Positions 4,087 through 20,938 of a stretch of DNA of 20,938 bases are shown piece after piece (the first letter of the stretch is position 1; the number at the start of each line of letters is the position of its first letter). The notes under the pieces were generated by a model. That model was not told the origin of the DNA, did not search any database, and worked only from the letters and a program-made list of their open reading frames with translations. Source of the DNA: a virus; IMG/VR virus record IMGVR_UViG_3300035698_020735, positions 1 through 20,938 of that record; one strand, given 5' to 3'. The position numbers and the translations under genes are program-made.

Positions 4087-5736
4087 ATGTCATTTAACCT
4101 ACAAGAATATATTCTTTTTAGAAGTGAATTAAAAAGAGAACTTTATAATAACGAAGTTGATAGTAATTTTAAAATGGTTGCTAATCCTTGGTCAGAGGAA
4201 AGAACTTACGAAGAAGGTAATGTCGTTTATCACCCAGTTGTTATAACTACAACTGATATAACCGGATCCCCTTTAACAGAAGAGGCATTAGCATGGTGGA
4301 GAGCTAATACAAGATCAACTCGTGGTGTTTTCGATACAGATGAATGGGATTTAATTGGAGGAGTAGGTTCTGGTGATATCACAATAGAATCATCACCCGG
4401 ATTTGGTAAAGTTATTTTGAATTATACTGGAGCAACTGGTGGATTTATTTCTACTAATGATGGAACATTAGCAGCATCTTCACCTAATGATATATTCAGA
4501 TTTATTGCTGGTTCAGGAATGTCTTTACAATATGATGTTACAACAAATACAATTAAATTTATAAACACTGGATCTTTAGGGCAATCAAATATTGGAGAAA
4601 CTCTCGGAACTGGTACACATGAAGATATTTATACTGGAATGGATGGCGTTAAATTAACATTTAGGGGATTAGCAGTAGGCGCTTTAAGTAGTTCTGCGCT
4701 ATCTCTTAACCTTAATGCAATTACAAATAATCTTGAATATAGTTTAAACGAAGCTACGATAAGTTTACAAAATCTTAATAGTGCACAATCAACAGCTGAT
4801 ATGATATCTGATATTAGTTATGGCGCAGGTTTAACAAATAATAATGTATTAATCTGGAGTGCATCAGCTGGTAAATGGGTTCCTTCAACAATTCCAACTG
4901 GAGCACAAGGCGCGCAAGGAGCGCAAGGTATATTAGGTATACAGGGAACGTTCGGTACACAAGGTATACAAGGTATAACTGGAGTTCAAGGAATTCAAGG
5001 TATAACTGGAGTTCAAGGAATTCAAGGTATACAGGGAATTCAAGGAATTCAAGGTATACAGGGAATTCAAGGTATAATTGGATCACAAGGTATACAAGGT
5101 ATAACTGGAGTTCAAGGTATACAAGGTGTTACCACTGACATACCTTCTATATTTACTCATTCGATATTTTTTAAGACGGGTTTACCTAATTATAGAACAA
5201 CTGATGATGTTATGATTGGCGGTTTAGCAGCTGAAGGTGGATGGGCAGCAAATATTTGGGATAAATCTACAGGAACTATTGCGGATTTAACATTAGCTAT
5301 ACCTTTATTAAGTTTAGAAGATGTTAATATGGGTATTCCATTAATAGAAGATATATCAGCTGATATTGGTAAACAATTAGTTATTCGTTTAGCATTATCT
5401 GTGCCATGGTCAACTGGCGATGTCACTGATACTTTAGTAATATGGGCAGGAAAATATAGTCTTAATGATTTTGTTGCATCTAGTAGTAATTTAATATTAC
5501 AAAGATTAGATAATATAGGAGGAGGCGTTCATGGTGTTTATTTAACGAGTCCTTTAACATTACAAAATAGTGAATATTGGTATGTATATGAAGATATCAT
5601 ATTTGAACTTGATAAAGAAGATTTTACTGCAGACACAGACAGATTACTTATAGGGTTTGGATCAGGTAATGGAGAAGCATTAGTAGCAGGTACTTCAGTT
5701 ATAACATATAAAGCGTGGATTAGAGATTCAATTTAA
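4087..5736 (+). CDS. Tail fibre-like protein with collagen-like segment
   Basis: This 549-residue protein has three parts. The N-terminal part (about 30-95) includes Y-E-E-G-N-V-V-Y-H, then AWWRANTRSTRG and DEWDLIGG, which resembles small carbohydrate-binding modules of the chitinase type (CBM5/12-like). A Gly/Ser/Asn-rich beta region follows. Residues 272-348 are 25 consecutive Gly-X-Y triplets, mainly GIQ, GIT and GVQ, a collagen-like trimeric stalk with no proline. The C-terminal part (about 350-549) is beta-rich with Trp and Tyr clusters and is a likely receptor-binding or trimerisation head. Such Gly-X-Y segments are typical of phage fibres. I infer a surface-exposed host-recognition fibre. 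The ATG at 4087 follows an A-rich leader with no SD. The head matches no family I can name. Confidence 0.75.
   Translation: MSFNLQEYILFRSELKRELYNNEVDSNFKMVANPWSEERTYEEGNVVYHPVVITTTDITGSPLTEEALAWWRANTRSTRGVFDTDEWDLIGGVGSGDITIESSPGFGKVILNYTGATGGFISTNDGTLAASSPNDIFRFIAGSGMSLQYDVTTNTIKFINTGSLGQSNIGETLGTGTHEDIYTGMDGVKLTFRGLAVGALSSSALSLNLNAITNNLEYSLNEATISLQNLNSAQSTADMISDISYGAGLTNNNVLIWSASAGKWVPSTIPTGAQGAQGAQGILGIQGTFGTQGIQGITGVQGIQGITGVQGIQGIQGIQGIQGIQGIQGIIGSQGIQGITGVQGIQGVTTDIPSIFTHSIFFKTGLPNYRTTDDVMIGGLAAEGGWAANIWDKSTGTIADLTLAIPLLSLEDVNMGIPLIEDISADIGKQLVIRLALSVPWSTGDVTDTLVIWAGKYSLNDFVASSSNLILQRLDNIGGGVHGVYLTSPLTLQNSEYWYVYEDIIFELDKEDFTADTDRLLIGFGSGNGEALVAGTSVITYKAWIRDSI
4900..5130 (+). repeat. Tandem repeat encoding collagen-like Gly-X-Y triplets
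   Basis: This stretch of 231 bases is built from 9-base units such as GGAATTCAA, GGTATACAA and GGTATAACT. Longer blocks recur; the 27-base block starting GGTATAACTGGAGTTCAA occurs twice in direct succession and in part again near the end. Near-identical units favour slippage in steps of nine bases, which would change stalk length without breaking frame. Open frames on both strands here are by-products of the repeat. Confidence 0.9.
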
Positions 5737-13121: not shown

Positions 13122-13964
13122 ATGTCAAAATTAACATCAAAAGAATTAAAAAGTGATAATTTAAAAGATACTCAATGGATAGGTATTGTTGAAGATACTG
13201 TAGATGATTCATATGAAGGTCGATGTAAGATAAGAGTATTTGGCAAAATGGATCAACGAACAGATCCTGGTGATCAAAGTAGTGCTTATGTTTTACCTAC
13301 TAATATTTTACCATGGGCTAGACCTGCTACTTTACAATCAGGTGGTAGTAATAGTGGTAGTGGTATTTTTTCAATTCCAAAATTAGGTTCAGTATTAAGA
13401 ATAACTTTTGATAATGGAAATTATTACTTTCCAATATATCATGAAAATATTTATCCATCAGATGAAGTAAAAGCAGAACTACAAAATTCATATGGAAATT
13501 CCCATATGCTTATATATGATACTGCTTTCGGATTAAGTGCTGGAGATAATGGAAATATTTCAAATGAACGTGAAAACGAAAGCATTAAAGTTTTCTTTAC
13601 TGAAGAAATGGGTTTAATGATGGATTATGCTACTAAAGAAGGCTCAACTTCAATTAATATAAAACCTGATAATAGTATAGAACTTAAAAATCCAAATGGA
13701 GATTCTATAGTAATGTTAAATGACGGTACTACTAACATAACATGTAAGAATTCAAATGTCATTTGTGAAAATATGGTCATTGATCATTCTAAATCAATTG
13801 AATTAGGCAAGGGTGCACAAGAGAAACTTGTATTAGGTAATTCCTTTATGACATTATTTAATTCACATACTCATATTGGAAATATAGGTGCACCTACAAG
13901 TCCACCCGTAAAGCCTATGACTCCTGTTACTCATTTAAGTAAGAAAAATATAAAAACTAAATAA
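13122..13964 (+). CDS. Baseplate spike protein (gp5/gpV-like), no lysozyme domain
   Basis: This 280-residue protein is the membrane-piercing spike. An N-terminal OB fold (about 15-110) contains WIGIVEDTVDD and CKIRVFGKMD and, further on, IPKLGSVLRITFDNGN. A repetitive beta-helix region follows (about 175-240: SINIKPDNSIELKNPNGDSI and on). The C-terminus has NSHTHIGNIGAPTSPP with His249-x-His251, the motif that binds a metal ion at the spike apex in P2 gpV and related tips. T4 gp5 carries a lysozyme domain between OB fold and helix; there is no room for one here, so peptidoglycan cleavage must come from another protein. The order hub - tube-like - spike fits contractile systems. Confidence 0.85.
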   Translation: MSKLTSKELKSDNLKDTQWIGIVEDTVDDSYEGRCKIRVFGKMDQRTDPGDQSSAYVLPTNILPWARPATLQSGGSNSGSGIFSIPKLGSVLRITFDNGNYYFPIYHENIYPSDEVKAELQNSYGNSHMLIYDTAFGLSAGDNGNISNERENESIKVFFTEEMGLMMDYATKEGSTSINIKPDNSIELKNPNGDSIVMLNDGTTNITCKNSNVICENMVIDHSKSIELGKGAQEKLVLGNSFMTLFNSHTHIGNIGAPTSPPVKPMTPVTHLSKKNIKTK

Positions 13965-13966
13965 TT

Positions 13967-14206
13967 ATGCCATTAACGCCATCAGTATTACAATTAGCAA
14001 CAGAAGAAGCATTTGAAAAAGCAATGTTAGTTTTTGCTGAGTTTATATCAAATAACCCAGTGGGTAAAGATGTATCTAGTGAAGCTAGAACCGCCGCTGC
14101 AAAAACGTTCGCATTAATAATTACACCTGCTATCGATGCATATATCAGAAGTGGCGTAGTAACAGTTGCATCTCCAACCGGACCTCTACCTGGAACTATA
14201 ATTTAA
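13967..14206 (+). CDS. Small conserved virion-cluster protein, 79 aa
   Basis: The ATG at 13967 follows the spike stop by two bases. The protein is Ala-rich and helical (PSVLQLATEEAFEKAMLVFA, then EARTAAAKTFALIITPAIDA), ending YIRSGVVTVASPTGPLPG. Short proteins of this style, with an A-I-D-A-Y-I-x-S segment and a Gly/Pro tail, are often found directly after spike or hub genes in phages. The function is not known. It has no signal peptide; the helices are amphipathic rather than clear membrane spans. Translational coupling to the spike gene is likely. Confidence 0.65.
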   Translation: MPLTPSVLQLATEEAFEKAMLVFAEFISNNPVGKDVSSEARTAAAKTFALIITPAIDAYIRSGVVTVASPTGPLPGTII

Positions 14207-14226: not shown

Positions 14227-14272
14227 TTTTAAGTTTATGTATATAATAACTGTTATAACTCTTAAACTAAAA
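14227..14272 (+). promoter_or_regulatory. Bulged hairpin directly before the S1-like gene
   Basis: TTTTA-A-GTTTA (14227-14237) pairs with TAAACTAAAA (14263-14272): ten pairs with one bulged A. The structure closes a 25-base loop that contains TATATAAT (14240-14247) and the palindrome GTTATAAC. It ends three bases before the ATG at 14276. A structured leader on an S1-type gene could give autoregulation, as known for E. coli rpsA, but this is inference. Confidence 0.4.
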
Positions 14273-14275
14273 ATA

Positions 14276-15421
14276 ATGATTGAACAAAAAATTACAATTC
14301 AAAATGGAAATGATCCATTAGACACTTACGAAATTATTGCAACCGTTCCAAATGACGTAAAAATATTATCAACTGAACCTGATGTCATAGAAAAAATGGC
14401 AATGTATGGTATATCAGATGAGGATATTAAGTCAGTTAATCAATGTGAATTACAAGATACTAGTATTGTGCGAGGCATAGTATCATCTCTCGATAATCAG
14501 AAAACTAAAGCTTATATTGATATTGGATCAAAATATACTGCTACTTGCAATTTAAGTAAAGAACCTGAATATGTATTAGAACAATTGGCACCAGGTTTAC
14601 AGGTTGATGTTAAATTAAAAAACGATCAAGCCGGTAATATTTATGCCTCTATAATAGATGCATTAAATGAAGGAATTCATAATAATATTCTGGAATCTAT
14701 TGGAGATAAATCTGTTGGATTTACTGCAAAAGTTAAAGAACTTATTTATGGTGGATATTGGTTGAATATTAGCGGAATTACATGCTTTATGCCAGGTTCA
14801 TTAGCCGGTCTTAATAAATTACATGATTTTGAATCATTAGTTGGTAAAGAAATTATTGTTATGCCAATTACATATTCTCGTAGCAAAAATACAATTGTAG
14901 TATCACACAGAGAGTATCTTACTACTCTTATTCCTGGAGCAATTGAACACGTTAAAGAAAACGATAGAGAAATGTATACTGGATTTGTTACAGGTACTGC
15001 TAAATTTGGAGTATTCGTTGAATTTAATAAATGCTTAACTGGATTAATTCCTAAAGATGATTTAGATGAGAAAACTCTAAAACGATTTGAAAATAGAGAT
15101 ATTAAACCAGGAGATGACATGTCATTTTGGTTAAATGAAATTCTATCAGAGAAAAAAATTATTCTTACTCAATTAGGCCCTAGAGAAAATATATGGGATA
15201 CTGCTGATGAGAAATACAAACCTATGATGGTTACAATAGGTACCGTTACAAAAGTAACGGCTTATGGTGCTTTCGTAGAATTAGAAAAGGGAATCAGTGG
15301 TCTTATTCATAAATCTAAATTAAGAAACTACGAACCTGTTAGAGGAGAACGTATCAGTATTAAAATTCAAAGCATTAATACTTCTAGTAAACGAATAACT
15401 TTAGCACTCCCACTCACATAA
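14276..15421 (+). CDS. Ribosomal protein S1-like RNA-binding protein (four S1 domains)
   Basis: This 381-residue protein has four S1 (OB-fold) RNA-binding domains at about 62-128, 147-212, 231-300 and 316-378. The last two are the clearest: TGFVTGTAKFGVFVEFNKCL with GLIPKDDL, and GTVTKVTAYGAFVELEKGIS with GLIHKSKL, both ending in the usual strand (KKIILTQL, KRITLALP). The layout resembles the central domains of bacterial bS1, which docks mRNA on the 30S subunit and unfolds structured leaders. At 381 residues it is shorter than six-domain bS1. I start at 14276, not at the ATG at 14237, because the extra 13 residues lie inside the leader hairpin and add no domain. It sits between spike and amidoligase genes and is followed by a strong terminator. 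Confidence 0.9.
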   Translation: MIEQKITIQNGNDPLDTYEIIATVPNDVKILSTEPDVIEKMAMYGISDEDIKSVNQCELQDTSIVRGIVSSLDNQKTKAYIDIGSKYTATCNLSKEPEYVLEQLAPGLQVDVKLKNDQAGNIYASIIDALNEGIHNNILESIGDKSVGFTAKVKELIYGGYWLNISGITCFMPGSLAGLNKLHDFESLVGKEIIVMPITYSRSKNTIVVSHREYLTTLIPGAIEHVKENDREMYTGFVTGTAKFGVFVEFNKCLTGLIPKDDLDEKTLKRFENRDIKPGDDMSFWLNEILSEKKIILTQLGPRENIWDTADEKYKPMMVTIGTVTKVTAYGAFVELEKGISGLIHKSKLRNYEPVRGERISIKIQSINTSSKRITLALPLT

Positions 15422-15450: not shown

Positions 15451-15494
15451 AAGATATCTGATTTGAAATATATAAACAAATCAGGTATTTTTTT
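15451..15494 (+). terminator. Strong intrinsic terminator after the S1-like gene
   Basis: AAGATATCTGATTTG (15451-15465) pairs with CAAATCAGGTATTTT (15477-15491), 15 pairs with two G-U wobbles, loop AAATATATAAA. The stem merges into seven T residues (15488-15494) that end at the ATG of the next gene. It lies 29 bases after the S1-like stop. The loop contains TATATAAA and the second copy of the 18-base repeat (15466-15483). The next gene thus needs read-through or a promoter within the element. Confidence 0.75.
15466..15483 (+). repeat. 18-base intergenic repeat with TATATAAA, copy 2
   Basis: This sequence is identical to 2837-2854 (aaatatataaacaaatca). Here it forms the loop and part of the right arm of the terminator hairpin. 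Both copies lie shortly upstream of a start codon (2862 and 15495). TATATAAA is at 15469-15476. Confidence 0.4.
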
Positions 15495-16790
15495 ATGTAT
15501 TCTAACGAACAGCTTAATGCTATATATGCTTCAAAAATTGGATTTGAGTTTGAATTCTTTTCTAATCAAGATCTAAATCTTACTAAAGAATCTTTATCTA
15601 ATGCTTTAAATAAAAAAATTAGAGTAGAAGAAAAGGCGCATAGTAACTTTACACCAACCGATACATTCTTCAAATTAGAGCCTGATAATTCAGGCGGTTC
15701 TGGAATGATTGAACTAGTAACTGGCGCAATGCCATTTGTTGAGTCCAAATTAATGTTAGCTAAGACATTAAAATGGATCAAAGAAAATGGCAGCACTAAT
15801 GATAGATGTTCAATTCATGTTAATATTTCATTTGATGGTAAAAAATTAGGCCCAAGTTTAAATATGACAAATTTAGATGTTGGAAAATTTGTACTTAATT
15901 TTGATGAGAATAGGGTATATGAAGAATTTCCAAATAGAAAAAATTCTGTATATGCTAAATCGATTAAATTTATTTTACCATTAAACGGAATGATCCAACC
16001 ATCATCAGAACAAGTTTCATGGAAAAATTATATGTTTGCTAATGAAAAATATTATGGCATTAATTTTACAAAAGTGCCTAAAGGATATATCGAATTTCGT
16101 TATATAGGTGGTGCAGATTATGAAAACCGATATAATTCAATATTATCATTAACAGAACATTTTGTAACATCATTATACGATGTATTAGAATATCCAAAAT
16201 ACACGGATAAAGATGTACAGAAATTAAACAAAGTTCTTGAACATCACAAACATATTATCAAATCATATAAATCATATGAAAACTTCCAACAAGAATTTCC
16301 TAAAATAAATTTAATGGTTGATCTACAAACTGCAGATTCAATTATTAAAATGTATTATCCTAAGATAAGAGAACAAATATTTGATTTAGTTACAAAGGCT
16401 GAGATGACTGAAGGTTTAATTAACTACGACAGTGATATTGGCAAAATTCAAATTAAAGATGCAACTCTTATGCAATGTTTTGAAATTAAAAACATCGACA
16501 TAATTGATTGTAAAATTCAAGGGAATATTAAAAAATGTGATATCTTTACATCAGAAATATTGAATTCATCAATGTATGAATGTAACTTATTTGATAATAG
16601 TCAAGTAAATGATAGTAAAATAGAAGAATCTTATGTTAGTAGAGATATTTTATGTGAAGACTCATATGTTTTCGGTAGGAGAGGGGTATTTAGTGGAGAA
16701 ATGAAAGGTGGAATATTTCGACAAGGGAGAGCTACTAAATTTGCTAAATTTTCTAATTGTGAGATAATTGAAATAGAAAAAATTAAATAA
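15495..16790 (+). CDS. Amidoligase-like enzyme with C-terminal beta-helix-like domain
   Basis: The 431-residue protein has the signature of the glutamine synthetase-like amidoligase family (Amidoligase_2 type): GFEFEF near the N-terminus (16-21), LEPDNSG and IELVTG (61-77), CSIHVNIS (105-112) and YIEFRYIGG (198-206). These carry the acidic and His residues that bind Mg-ATP and substrate in that family, whose members join a carboxylate to an amine. A helical part follows (about 210-310). Residues about 317-428 are a repetitive strand pattern rich in Cys, Ser, Asn and Ile (DCKIQGN, KKCDIF, SEILNSSMYECNLFDNSQV), suggesting a beta-helix or pentapeptide-like fold. The substrate is unknown; peptidoglycan-like peptides or protein tagging are possibilities. 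The ATG directly follows the T-tract of the terminator. Confidence 0.7.
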   Translation: MYSNEQLNAIYASKIGFEFEFFSNQDLNLTKESLSNALNKKIRVEEKAHSNFTPTDTFFKLEPDNSGGSGMIELVTGAMPFVESKLMLAKTLKWIKENGSTNDRCSIHVNISFDGKKLGPSLNMTNLDVGKFVLNFDENRVYEEFPNRKNSVYAKSIKFILPLNGMIQPSSEQVSWKNYMFANEKYYGINFTKVPKGYIEFRYIGGADYENRYNSILSLTEHFVTSLYDVLEYPKYTDKDVQKLNKVLEHHKHIIKSYKSYENFQQEFPKINLMVDLQTADSIIKMYYPKIREQIFDLVTKAEMTEGLINYDSDIGKIQIKDATLMQCFEIKNIDIIDCKIQGNIKKCDIFTSEILNSSMYECNLFDNSQVNDSKIEESYVSRDILCEDSYVFGRRGVFSGEMKGGIFRQGRATKFAKFSNCEIIEIEKIK

Positions 16791-17667: not shown

Positions 17668-17700
17668 AGGAGAATATATATTAAAAGAATATTCTCAATG
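17668..17700 (+). promoter_or_regulatory. Hairpin-spaced ribosome binding site of the gp25-like gene
   Basis: AGGAG (17668-17672) is the only good SD-like sequence near a start in the window, but it ends 25 bases before the ATG at 17698. Between them GAGAATAT (17670-17677) pairs perfectly with ATATTCTC (17689-17696), ending one base before the ATG. Folding would bring AGGAG close to the start, though it also pairs part of it. T4 gene 25 is known to use a hairpin between SD and start. Confidence 0.5.
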
Positions 17701-18060
17701 ATAAAAGATATCTATAGCAGAGATGTAGATGCACCTAAATATAATGATAATATTATCGAGGTTTCCGATGATATATCTCAACTAATTTTAAAAATAGAAA
17801 ATACTCTATTTACACGAAAGGGTGAAGTCTTAGGCGTAGCTGATTTCGGTTGTAATTTAGACGATCTTGTCTTTTCTTTAGTTCTAAATGAATCTGTTAT
17901 TCAGCAAAGAATAAGTAATCAAATACAAGCATATTGTGTACCTGATACTAATAAATTTACAATTGATGTTGATGTAAAATTTTTCAACACAGTTGAACGT
18001 GATGGTGCTCTTATTGATATTTTTATCAATGAACAGAGAGTACTAGGAGCGTTATTTTAA
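17698..18060 (+). CDS. Baseplate wedge protein gp25-like
   Basis: This 120-residue protein is the conserved wedge component of contractile tails (T4 gp25, P2 gpW, TssE in type VI secretion). The core is TRKGEVLGVADFGCNLDDLV (about 39-58), matching the family pattern of a polar loop with Glu followed by D/E-F-G. Then comes a helix (ESVIQQRISNQIQAY) and two C-terminal strands (KFTIDVDVKF; LIDIFINEQ). It joins sheath and tube at the top of the baseplate through contacts with gp6 and gp53-like proteins. Length is close to T4 gp25 (132). It is followed by the gp6-like gene, the usual order. The unusual leader is described separately. Confidence 0.85.
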   Translation: MIKDIYSRDVDAPKYNDNIIEVSDDISQLILKIENTLFTRKGEVLGVADFGCNLDDLVFSLVLNESVIQQRISNQIQAYCVPDTNKFTIDVDVKFFNTVERDGALIDIFINEQRVLGALF

Positions 18061-18074
18061 AATAATAATAAAAA

Positions 18075-19934
18075 ATGTCATTTTTCAGCAAATCGAGAAT
18101 AAAAGCTACTGAATTATTTTATGATGCATTTGTTTATTTACAAAAAACATATGATCAATCAAGAGAAGTGTTTAGTCCATCATCACCATTTGGTCAACTT
18201 TTAACAGTTATCGCAAATTTAGGCGAAATGATATTTTATTATATTGAATCATCTATTACGGAACTTAATATATCAAGAGCACGTAATATTGAATCAATTT
18301 ATGGATTATCGAGGTTAACGGGTCATGATCCATCTAGAGGAATATCTGCAAGGGGAGTTATTGGTTTAAAACTTAATACTAAAGCTTCAACTTTATTAAA
18401 CGGAAACTATGTACAAATTTTAAATGGAGCCGAAATAGAAATGGGAAATAATGGATTGACTTACTTCCTTAATTTTGACAGTGATTTTATTAGACTTGAA
18501 AAAGGAAATGTTAAATTTACAAACGTTGAATTGATCCAAGGTGAATCTGAAACTCAAAAATTTACAGGAACAGGTTTAACATTACAAAGTTATAATGCCA
18601 TAACGAAAGATATGACAGATAATAATATCATCAAAGTTAAAGTAGATGGTGAACTTTGGAAACGTGTAGATTCTATTTATGATATGAATAATAATGAAAA
18701 GGCATATCTTTGTAAAACTAGTATAACCGGAGGTTTAAGTATATTCTTTGGCACTAATCAATTTGGAATACCACCTGCACTAGGTTCAATTATTGAATTA
18801 ATTTATATTAAGACCAGAGGAGTAGCTGGTAATATTGGTGGCAAAAATCTTGATTTAAAATTCAAAGAAGCAGGCACAGATCAAACCAGTGACTCAATTG
18901 ATCTTAATGAAATATTATCGTTAAGTATTGTTAGAAACCCTTCATTTGGTTCTGATGGCGAAGATCCTAATTTTACGCGTATAATTGCACCATATCAAAG
19001 TAATTCATTTGTTTTAGCAAATCCGAATAATTACATTTATTATTTAAGTAAGTATGATTATTTTTCTTTCATTGATGCATATAATACAAAGGATGATGAA
19101 TATATTGATGATAACAATATCATATACTTATCATTAATACCAGATATTAAAAAGAAATTAACAAGTGATGTTGATTATTTTTCAATAGCACAAGAAGAAT
19201 TTGTAATGACTGACGATGAAAAAGATCAAGTATATGATATATTAAATAATAGTGGAAGACAAGTTATTACAGCAGAAACTAGAATCGTTGATCCTATCAT
19301 TAAAAAATATGTAATTAATATTGTATTAAGATATTATGAAACTGCTGATAAAAATACAATACAAACTGAAATAAGAAGTAGATTAAATGAATATTTCTTA
19401 AATGTAAGTAGAAGAGATAATATTCCAAGATCTGATTTAATTGCAATAGTCGAAAGTGTAGATGGAGTTGACTCTGTTAATATCTTCTTTATATCAGAAG
19501 AAAACGAAACTGCAATTAAGAATGGATATTATTATGTACCTGTTTATGGAACAGATCCTGCAACAGATCAAAAAACATTAATAGAAAATAAAAAGATAGT
19601 CTTGACAACTAACGAAGATCCTCAATTAGGCTTAGATGGATTCGGTGATATCACAATAAAAAAAGGAGAAATTACAATAATTAGAGGAGGGTTCGAAGAT
19701 AGAAACGGTAATGAATATCTTGAAATACCAACCGATAATAAAATAAGTTCTCTTAATATATTCTTTAAAGATGTTGTTGCTAGTGATCTTTATAATAAAA
19801 CTCAACAGGCTAAGTTTAATGCTATTAAAAGAAATAAAGGCACAACTATAGCAACCGGGTCAAATGCAAAAAGTACTAACACTGGAAGATTACAAAGTAA
19901 TTCTGCAGTTAAGTCATTAAAAACAAGTAATTAA
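18075..19934 (+). CDS. Baseplate wedge protein gp6/BaseplateJ-like
   Basis: This 619-residue protein follows the gp25-like gene by 14 bases. The N-terminal 75 residues are helical (TELFYDAFVYLQKTYDQ) and FSPSSPFGQLLTVIANLGEM is the dimerisation-type segment. Beta regions follow around 90-260 with VKVDGELWKRVDSI and GVAGNIGG, typical of the BaseplateJ family (T4 gp6, P2 gpJ). A second part (about 395-490) reads ITAETRIVDPIIKKYVINIV then RRDNIPRSDLIAIVESVDGV, the conserved J domain that ends the wedge protein. The C-terminal 40 residues are Ser/Thr/Lys/Asn-rich and likely disordered. gp6 forms the wedge ring that controls sheath contraction. The assignment is based on family pattern and neighbours. 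Confidence 0.8.
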   Translation: MSFFSKSRIKATELFYDAFVYLQKTYDQSREVFSPSSPFGQLLTVIANLGEMIFYYIESSITELNISRARNIESIYGLSRLTGHDPSRGISARGVIGLKLNTKASTLLNGNYVQILNGAEIEMGNNGLTYFLNFDSDFIRLEKGNVKFTNVELIQGESETQKFTGTGLTLQSYNAITKDMTDNNIIKVKVDGELWKRVDSIYDMNNNEKAYLCKTSITGGLSIFFGTNQFGIPPALGSIIELIYIKTRGVAGNIGGKNLDLKFKEAGTDQTSDSIDLNEILSLSIVRNPSFGSDGEDPNFTRIIAPYQSNSFVLANPNNYIYYLSKYDYFSFIDAYNTKDDEYIDDNNIIYLSLIPDIKKKLTSDVDYFSIAQEEFVMTDDEKDQVYDILNNSGRQVITAETRIVDPIIKKYVINIVLRYYETADKNTIQTEIRSRLNEYFLNVSRRDNIPRSDLIAIVESVDGVDSVNIFFISEENETAIKNGYYYVPVYGTDPATDQKTLIENKKIVLTTNEDPQLGLDGFGDITIKKGEITIIRGGFEDRNGNEYLEIPTDNKISSLNIFFKDVVASDLYNKTQQAKFNAIKRNKGTTIATGSNAKSTNTGRLQSNSAVKSLKTSN

Positions 19935-19936
19935 AA

Positions 19937-20200
19937 ATGGCAAGTAATGATAGAAAAGGATTTCCTAGTGTTTTTAATGTTACATACGAAACTGGATGGG
20001 ATATTAAAAATACTGGATATGACTATACATCGACACTAATGAGAAAAACATTATCTACATATATGTTTCGTAATATTAGATTAGCAACATTCATACAAGA
20101 TCATTTAAATACAATAATGAATTTTTATGTCGATAGAGTTAAATTCATAAGAATCTATTTTAATTATGCAGTTAATAAAGATTATAAAAAAATTAACTAA
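19937..20200 (+). CDS. Small basic baseplate-cluster protein, 87 aa
   Basis: The ATG is two bases after the gp6-like stop. The 87-residue protein is basic and aromatic. It begins MASNDRKGFPSVFNVTYETG with a probable helical middle (FRNIRLATFIQDHLNTIMNF) and ends with Tyr/Lys/Asn. No motif is recognised. Coupling to gp6-like and to the following gene (ATG 20204, three bases after this stop) suggests a tightly co-expressed wedge-associated protein, but the sequence alone does not show a function. Confidence 0.6.
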   Translation: MASNDRKGFPSVFNVTYETGWDIKNTGYDYTSTLMRKTLSTYMFRNIRLATFIQDHLNTIMNFYVDRVKFIRIYFNYAVNKDYKKIN

Positions 20201-20203
20201 TAA

Positions 20204-20938
20204 ATGAATCTTTGGGAACATATATACCTTTTTGACAAGAATGGTAAGTATTATAATTTTGAATATGATTCAATAAATGATATTTGGACAGGTGATATCT
20301 ACTTAACTGAAATTTCAACGAATTTATTTGAGGTTGGCCAAATTTTTATACTTCAAAAATTTTATGATCTTAATACTAACGTTTATAAATTCGGATTTCC
20401 TCATGCATATAACCCAGATGTAACAGGTGGGGGTGATGGTACTGGTGCCGTTAATTGTGGATGGACTGTTGAATGGGAAACCGCTGACCCAGAAGAAATA
20501 TTTTTATTTCAATTTGATTCAAGTTATAATACCGGAACACAATCTTCTTTAGTACAAGAAGAAGATGGTCCAGCTATGGTTAGTTACGATAATATTTTTA
20601 TTGACTTAGATTATGATGCAGCTCAAACTGTGAATAGTGATGGGTTCGTTGTAACTGATGATGTTAGATCTGAAACGATTCAAATTAATTTTGCTATAAA
20701 TTCGTCTGAAGAAAATACATTTAAAAGAACCCTTCTTATTAAAAATGTATGTACAGATTCTACTATTGCTAAAATTACAATATACGGAGAAACTATTGAA
20801 GAAGATGAAAGATTAAAAGTTATGACTCAAAACTTAGGTTATAACATAGTTTCAACAGATAGTAAAATATTCAGAGATACAAATTTAAAAGAAATCTTAC
20901 CGGATTATATAGAAGTTAATCGTAAGAGAAAGGAAATA
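20204..20938 (+). CDS. Unknown structural-type protein, partial (cut by window end)
   Basis: A frame opens at ATG 20204 and stays open for 245 codons to the end of the window, with no stop. The visible part is rich in Asp, Thr, Asn and aromatics. It starts MNLWEHIYLFDKNGKYYNFE and includes a Gly-rich loop (TGGGDGTGAVNCGWTVEWE) and SSLVQEEDGPAMVSYDNIFI. Mixed strands with acidic loops and no signal peptide or enzymatic motif fit a baseplate or tail structural protein. It lies just downstream of the gp6-like wedge gene, so a gp7- or gp8-like wedge component is possible. The rest of the gene is needed to say more. Confidence 0.7.
   Translation, partial: MNLWEHIYLFDKNGKYYNFEYDSINDIWTGDIYLTEISTNLFEVGQIFILQKFYDLNTNVYKFGFPHAYNPDVTGGGDGTGAVNCGWTVEWETADPEEIFLFQFDSSYNTGTQSSLVQEEDGPAMVSYDNIFIDLDYDAAQTVNSDGFVVTDDVRSETIQINFAINSSEENTFKRTLLIKNVCTDSTIAKITIYGETIEEDERLKVMTQNLGYNIVSTDSKIFRDTNLKEILPDYIEVNRKRKEI

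Follow-up and report, generated by a model that had tools for sequence, protein, structure and literature searches.

The window analysed here (the whole 20,938-nt stretch of viral DNA, IMG/VR record IMGVR_UViG_3300035698_020735) encodes a 381-residue protein with four S1/OB domains, and the evidence strongly supports its identity as a homologue of ribosomal protein bS1 that ends after domain 4, rather than an RNase or a NusA/Tex-type protein, because its second domain matches domain 2 (D2) of bS1 and no other bS1 domain. The S1 gene is a core gene of a phage clade and is under purifying selection. We think it fairly probable that its product is the bS1 of a large phage lineage, docking on the host 30S subunit and favoring initiation on phage mRNAs that lack Shine–Dalgarno (SD) motifs. 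The window is a 20.9-kb fragment, and translation genes outside it are beyond view. Features of the locus are collected in Table 1.

TABLE 1. Annotated features in and around the S1 gene of the window.
Feature	Position	Strand	Evidence and remarks
Baseplate spike/hub-like gene	13122..13964	+	PHROG baseplate hub; conserved upstream neighbor of S1
79-aa gene between spike and S1	13967..14206	+	Found in 41/110 relatives
Promoter-like element TATATAATA upstream of S1	14240..14248	+	Clade conservation; promoter function inferred
A-rich, SD-less leader of S1	14255..14275	+	Clade comparison
Phage bS1 homologue, 381 aa	14276..15421	+	ORF, Pfam, NCBIfam, PDB sequence match, AlphaFold fold, domain HMMs
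N-terminal extension, residues 1-58	14276..14449	+	Predicted beta-hairpin 2-24, then two less confidently modeled helices (37-43, 48-58)
OB domain 1, residues 61-128	14456..14659	+	Model, residue mapping, HMMs; least conserved domain
OB domain 2, residues 147-212	14714..14911	+	Best conserved of the four; bS1 D2-specific
OB domain 3, residues 230-300	14963..15175	+	HMM scores for bS1 D4-D6 above D3; aromatic F244/F247 retained
OB domain 4, residues 317-379	15224..15412	+	Y330/F333/H345 retained at canonical S1 RNA-face positions
Inverted repeat before start 15495, with TATATAAA (15469-15476) in loop	15451..15491	+	Folding, clade comparison
Conserved downstream neighbor of S1	15495..16790	+	Distant homologues match Amidoligase_2
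gp25-like baseplate wedge gene	17698..18060	+	Pfam GPW_gp25 E 4e-4, below family cut-off
gp6/baseplate J-like wedge gene	18075..19934	+	Pfam, PHROGs; S1-independent bait

Sequence and Fold Relationships of the S1 Protein

A preliminary description of this DNA had read four S1 domains in one 381-residue protein, and its coordinates, length and domain count are correct by Pfam, NCBIfam and AlphaFold. It had also judged the protein bS1-like rather than a nuclease or transcription factor, a view that the D2 specificity, the fold, the residues at uS2-contact and RNA-face positions and the lack of any other Pfam domain now bear out. The profile search and structure prediction against bS1 that it had proposed gave S1 models only in Pfam (E 4e-17) and, as the nearest fold, bS1 on the 30S subunit. 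NCBIfam bS1 models are colinear with residues 48-378, and a PHROGs search returned no family for the protein. A longer reading frame from the in-frame ATG at 14237 was ruled out: the S1 clade agrees on a start at 14276, with a conserved opening M[I/T]EQ..., and ATG 14237 coincides with the promoter-like element.

The AlphaFold model, computed from a 33-row alignment (pLDDT 85, pTM 0.61), contains four OB folds at about residues 63-125, 149-210, 233-298 and 319-377, preceded by the beta-hairpin and two low-confidence helices (Table 1); the N-terminal helix region aligns with the uS2-binding N-terminal helix of bS1. Among PDB entries, E. coli bS1 on the ribosome ranks first by sequence (E 1.5e-27; E. 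coli residues 12-346) and 30S mRNA-delivery complexes rank first by fold (9gut_B, E 1.2e-24). Residues 1-350 of 9guv_B match model residues 35-381 with a Z of 14.4, and the D1-D2 pair of 9guq_B superposes on the model over 165 aa at 4.1 Å. The match over four domains has an rmsd of 14 Å, which we infer to reflect free inter-domain angles. PDB matches to RNase R, NusA, Tex and eIF2-alpha involve mostly single OB domains. An S1-domain RNase, NusA, Tex or GSP13-type identity was rejected, because these families rank below bS1 by both sequence and fold and because Pfam gives S1 models and no catalytic or KH domain.

Descent from bS1, as opposed to membership in the generic S1 fold, was assessed by scoring HMMs of bacterial D1-D6 on the individual domains of 23 phage proteins. 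The D1-D2 pair is bS1-specific, very clearly for D2 and weakly for D1. The second domain scores best on bacterial D2 in 23/23 phage proteins, with a mean of 49 bits versus ≤7 on any other domain, and the first domain scores best on D1 in 16/23 (10.1 versus 6.5 bits for the window copy). Orthology of the third domain is ambiguous; by score it appears D4-D6-like rather than D3-like (23-24 versus 13 bits). The fourth domain is best on D4 in 14/22 phage proteins, with D5/D6 close behind. The window protein reaches 117.7 bits on the curated rpsA equivalog model versus a cut-off of 577, a cut-off that does not discriminate here because only 2/14 control genomes pass it.

Residues that E. coli bS1 uses on the ribosome point partly in the same direction. 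In the published structure, Lys43 enters the uS2 zinc pocket, Phe120 and Phe130 form the mRNA patch and Phe9 stacks on uS2 (PMC10123108). Mapped from these published contacts onto the 23 phage proteins, the Lys43 position is K86 in the window (K/R in 21/23), Phe120 is Y161 (Y/F in 23/23), Phe130 is F171 (F in 23/23) and Phe9 is Y44 (Y in 18/23), while Phe5 (K40 in the window) and Phe79 have no conserved equivalent. By this alignment, the uS2- and mRNA-contact positions of bS1 appear largely retained in phage S1s. Variants occur in other huge phages (L003-L007): domain 4 is missing from the Lak protein, and in several of these S1s FMPNTLAG takes the place of FMPGS in D2.

Distribution and Conservation Within the Baseplate Module

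A single-protein query of viral contigs found no match, and alignment queries recovered hundreds, with at least 533 S1 relatives in IMG/VR. All 110 S1-seeded loci carry a shared module on the same strand and in the same order, with the spike gene in 103, the next gene in 109, and gp25 and gp6/J in 108; the few missing genes may reflect contig ends or divergence. When wedge protein J served as an S1-independent bait, 38 loci were fetched, four of them truncated before the S1 site, and S1 was present in 34/34 of those reaching it, at 37-59% identity. Median dN/dS is 0.11 (0.06-0.21; 137 pairs of clade members). D1 is the least and D2 the most conserved domain, and D2-D4 are better kept than D1. 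The location between spike and wedge genes given in the preliminary description stands, with a PHROG baseplate hub on one side and the gp25-like and gp6/J-like genes on the other.

The nearest large genome, the 462-kb LR756500, has full synteny and 41% S1 identity. In LR756501-504, LR745206 and Lak, the S1 gene is located away from the baseplate module. A single clade with 100/100 support unites the phage S1s, those of LR75650x, LR745206 and Lak included. We take the LR records (LR756500 etc.) to stem from the study of Al-Shayeb et al.

Several neighbors deserve description in their own right. Amidoligase_2 scores above the Pfam cut-off in syntenic homologues of the gene after S1 (L146, L147) and below it in the window copy, the product of which is a putative amidoligase-fold protein within the baseplate module. 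An NAD-dependent DNA ligase with BRCT (598-2427) shares ~60% identity with the ligases of two huge phages (L005, L006; 635 and 642 kb); there the ligase lies ~10 kb from S1, and no other window gene matches those stretches. A tail-fiber-like ORF (4087-5736) has collagen-like G-x-Q-G repeats (GIQGIQG...) at about 4875-5140. An 87-aa ORF (19937-20200) ends in a stop, although homology to LR756500 goes on in the same window frame (19937-20938); at the end of this ORF the LR756500 match shifts frame, and the region probably holds either a pair of neighboring genes or one gene that has been split.

Host Lineage and Origin

A Bacteroidota host, and an old capture of S1 from Bacteroidota, is the likely and best reading of these sequences, because some phage S1s share an F-D/N-W motif with a Bacteroidota bS1 clade and because relatives of wedge protein J occur in Tenacibaculum, Flavobacterium and Chryseobacterium phages. 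Among the Bacteroidota bS1s sampled, 17 carry the motif upstream of D1; it was found in 0/34 other Bacteroidota bS1s and 0/79 other bacteria. The 14 motif-bearing bS1s that entered the tree group as a single 100/100 clade, which we take to be class Bacteroidia. Among phage proteins the motif is present in L089, L146, L147 and Lak and absent from the window and LR756500 S1s. Bacterial bS1s among those found are at most about 25-31% identical to the phage S1, and the long stem of the phage clade blocks its placement among bacteria in the tree. A grouping of phage S1s with Bacteroidia may hold: a quick tree built minus two long rows does not reject it (p-AU 0.41). Identity with the recently described moraphages found no support: the seven records tested (fragments except LR756500) contained no HSP70, and the main text of the moraphage paper mentions no ribosomal proteins.

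Start Sites Without Shine–Dalgarno Motifs

The preliminary description had noted that almost all starts in the window lack SD sequences, and the counts agree: SD-like motifs precede 0/19 window starts and 14/367 non-redundant clade starts, versus 14.2 expected by shuffling. A frequency peaks at 0.59-0.68 at -11 to -15 of clade starts. The same A peak has been described for F. johnsoniae, with domain 4 of bS1 positioned close to it (PMC6847099). That initiation would consequently depend on S1, as had been argued, is weakened by three phages, Tenacibaculum PTm1, Flavobacterium MaF61 and PAU, whose baseplate wedge genes are related and in which no S1 is detectable. SD-like starts in these phages are near chance (4/55, 2/47 and 2/38, respectively), and their A-rich -11 to -13 peak is the same. 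In the Delftia phage PhiW-14, SD motifs precede 28/38 starts. SD absence and the A-rich peak come with Bacteroidota hosts, and host lineage explains them; they are no evidence for S1 use, because S1-less Bacteroidota jumbo phages are equally SD-less.

This control corrects a current argument, in that missing SD motifs alone do not indicate a phage S1. Al-Shayeb et al. (2020; PMC7162821) drew support from the association of phage rpS1 with SD absence, a correlation that is probably confounded by host lineage. How start sites are chosen without SD pairing in Bacteroidota is unsettled, with bS1 a suspected reader of the A-rich leader.

Promoter-Like Elements and Hairpins

An ATATATA core lies ≤60 nt from the S1 start in 47/53 non-redundant clade members. 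Elements of this type also precede the unit-starting genes at 15495 (26/27), gp25 (32/32) and 6322 (16/17) and are absent before tightly packed genes, and on this basis S1 is apparently transcribed as a separate unit that carries an A-rich leader. TATATAA occurs on the + strand of the window at 2840, 3476, 6301, 14240 and 15469; across the clade it precedes S1, 15495 and 6322, with the related ATATATA element before gp25. This conservation makes TATATAA a likely phage promoter motif.

Hairpins had been proposed to abut several late starts, including that of S1 itself. The proposal fails at the S1 start, where folding is no better than in shuffles (z -0.38), and survives at the next start, where the hairpin at 15451-15491 has a z of -3.9 versus shuffles and carries the TATATAA promoter-like element in its loop. 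The latter hairpin is present in many, not all, relatives by single-sequence folding, and RNAalifold on a MAFFT alignment gave no pairs and no consensus structure for it. We regard the arrangement as a candidate promoter inside a hairpin, and as a lead only. Certain T4 late promoters lie within hairpins that hide starts on read-through mRNA, and the arrangement before 15495 resembles them. A conserved element after S1 was rejected as an intrinsic terminator for the clade; the T-run is missing in most relatives.

Possible Roles of the Phage S1

Under the reading that we favor, domains 1-2 would dock on the host 30S at uS2, adjoining the mRNA exit channel, and domains 3-4 would bind single-stranded A-rich 5' leaders. 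The phage bS1 would replace or supplement host bS1, and initiation on SD-less phage mRNAs would be favored while the surrounding virion genes are expressed. Binding to the 30S subunit, displacement of or exchange with the host protein, a bias toward phage mRNA and late timing are the inferred parts of this model. The gene content of S1-carrying huge phages fits an initiation toolkit: IF3 is encoded in LR756500, LR756501 and LR756504, and bS21 in four S1 phages (LR756501/502/504, LR745206), although bS21 was not found in LR756500, which has IF3 and S1. With F. johnsoniae components, initiation on one SD-less mRNA rose twofold once bS1 was supplied (PMC9976891). Counter to this model, the anchoring domain D1 is the least conserved and scores best on bacterial D1 in only 16/23 phage proteins, the N-terminal helix has low model confidence, Phe5 and Phe79 lack conserved equivalents, and S1-less Bacteroidota phages manage with equally SD-less starts. 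Low D1 conservation may mean host-specific adaptation or an off-ribosome function. More tentatively, and in our judgment unlikely, ribosomes would be specialized during virion production: the phage bS1, distinguished by its N-terminal beta-hairpin and its altered third domain, would outcompete host bS1 on uS2, and the A-rich leaders of late phage mRNAs would let it select these over equally SD-less host mRNAs.

The same domain pattern could instead describe a bS1-derived RNA chaperone or cofactor that acts off the ribosome on phage mRNA decay, structure or fate, without replacing ribosomal bS1, a role that we consider possible though unlikely. It would fit the better conservation of the RNA-contacting D2-D4 than of the ribosome-anchoring D1, the loss of D4 from the Lak homologue and the variation in D1 and N-terminus among other huge-phage homologues. 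Host S1 offers parallels, as it activates T4 RegB and serves in Q-beta replicase. Host S1 has been documented as a phage cofactor (PMC13157829, discussion), and whether phage rpS1 acts "on or off the ribosome" was left undecided by Al-Shayeb et al. (2020; PMC7162821). Retention of the bS1-specific D1-D2 pair, with equivalents of Lys43 and Phe120/Phe130, speaks for the ribosome nonetheless, and the co-occurrence of IF3 and bS21 points to initiation.

A protein lacking domains 5-6 and with an altered third domain could also occupy uS2 without full function, as a decoy that displaces host bS1 and shuts down host translation without itself promoting phage initiation. We find such a decoy quite improbable, considering that phage starts are of the same SD-less, A-rich type as those of the probable host, where an unselective block would harm the phage, and that the D4 RNA-face residues are conserved. 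The constant site in the baseplate module (next gene in 109/110 S1-seeded loci, S1 in 34/34 wedge-seeded ones reaching the site) might suggest an S1-fold protein recruited to the baseplate, perhaps delivered with the DNA; this is very improbable for a gene that is apparently transcribed separately and has a promoter-like element to itself, that lies outside the baseplate module in other huge phages and whose product has the bS1 fold and no structural-protein domain by Pfam, PHROGs or fold search. Finally, rpsA is a common host gene and several "phage" records with rpsA look bacterial, such that contamination or a recent host-gene capture could be misread as a phage gene. The chance of this is negligible: it is refuted by the tail genes that flank S1 throughout the clade, the identity of only 25-31% to any bacterial bS1 found and the single 100/100 clade of phage proteins.

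Comparison With Known Systems

Compared with bacterial bS1 (E. coli rpsA and four-domain bS1s), the window protein is alike in its colinearity over domains 1-4, fold, D2 identity and main contacts. It differs in being ~25-31% identical, in lacking D5-D6, in its extra N-terminal beta-hairpin, in a third domain nearer D4-D6 than D3 and in scoring below curated rpsA cut-offs. Naturally minimized, evolving fast and sequenced in hundreds of variants, the viral protein lends itself to finding out what parts of bS1 are indispensable, and it makes takeover of initiation testable by ordinary biochemistry.

A bS1 has also been reported in the jumbo phage record PhiMa05 (PMC13157829), though the match is weak (27.5% over 57% of the query) and the gene context is unrelated and bacterial-looking. 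In that record (MW495066, L008), rpsA has ispG, ispH, mqnC and a gene for a secretin in its vicinity. Another record labeled phage (MT835643, L163) carries a Bacteroidota-type full-length bS1 and also looks bacterial. Counts of phage ribosomal proteins that draw on such records need care.

A close precedent in logic and location is the phage bS21 of Chen et al. (2022; PMC9723584), a late-expressed copy of an exchangeable 30S initiation protein encoded among late structural genes of phages with predicted Bacteroidetes hosts. It is a different protein, and late expression was shown there; late timing of S1 would be a parallel.

Phage rpS1 itself is already known, although Mizuno (2019) set S1 aside as ambiguous and a true rpS1 was considered hard to confirm and present "in a few genomes" (Al-Shayeb et al., 2020; PMC7162821). 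The window protein resembles the huge-phage rpS1 of the latter study in being phage-encoded and multi-S1-domain, in occurring in SD-poor genomes and in its proposed redirection of initiation, and its closest database relative, LR756500, is a metagenomic huge-phage record. It differs in that bS1 ancestry is here confirmed by D2 and in that S1 is a syntenic core gene of the baseplate module in hundreds of IMG/VR contigs. The new elements are this ancestry, the Bacteroidota N-terminal motif, the clade-wide core status and the SD control, and they set this protein apart as an unusually widespread phage S1 that seems to be a true S1, not an RNA-binding protein of some general type.
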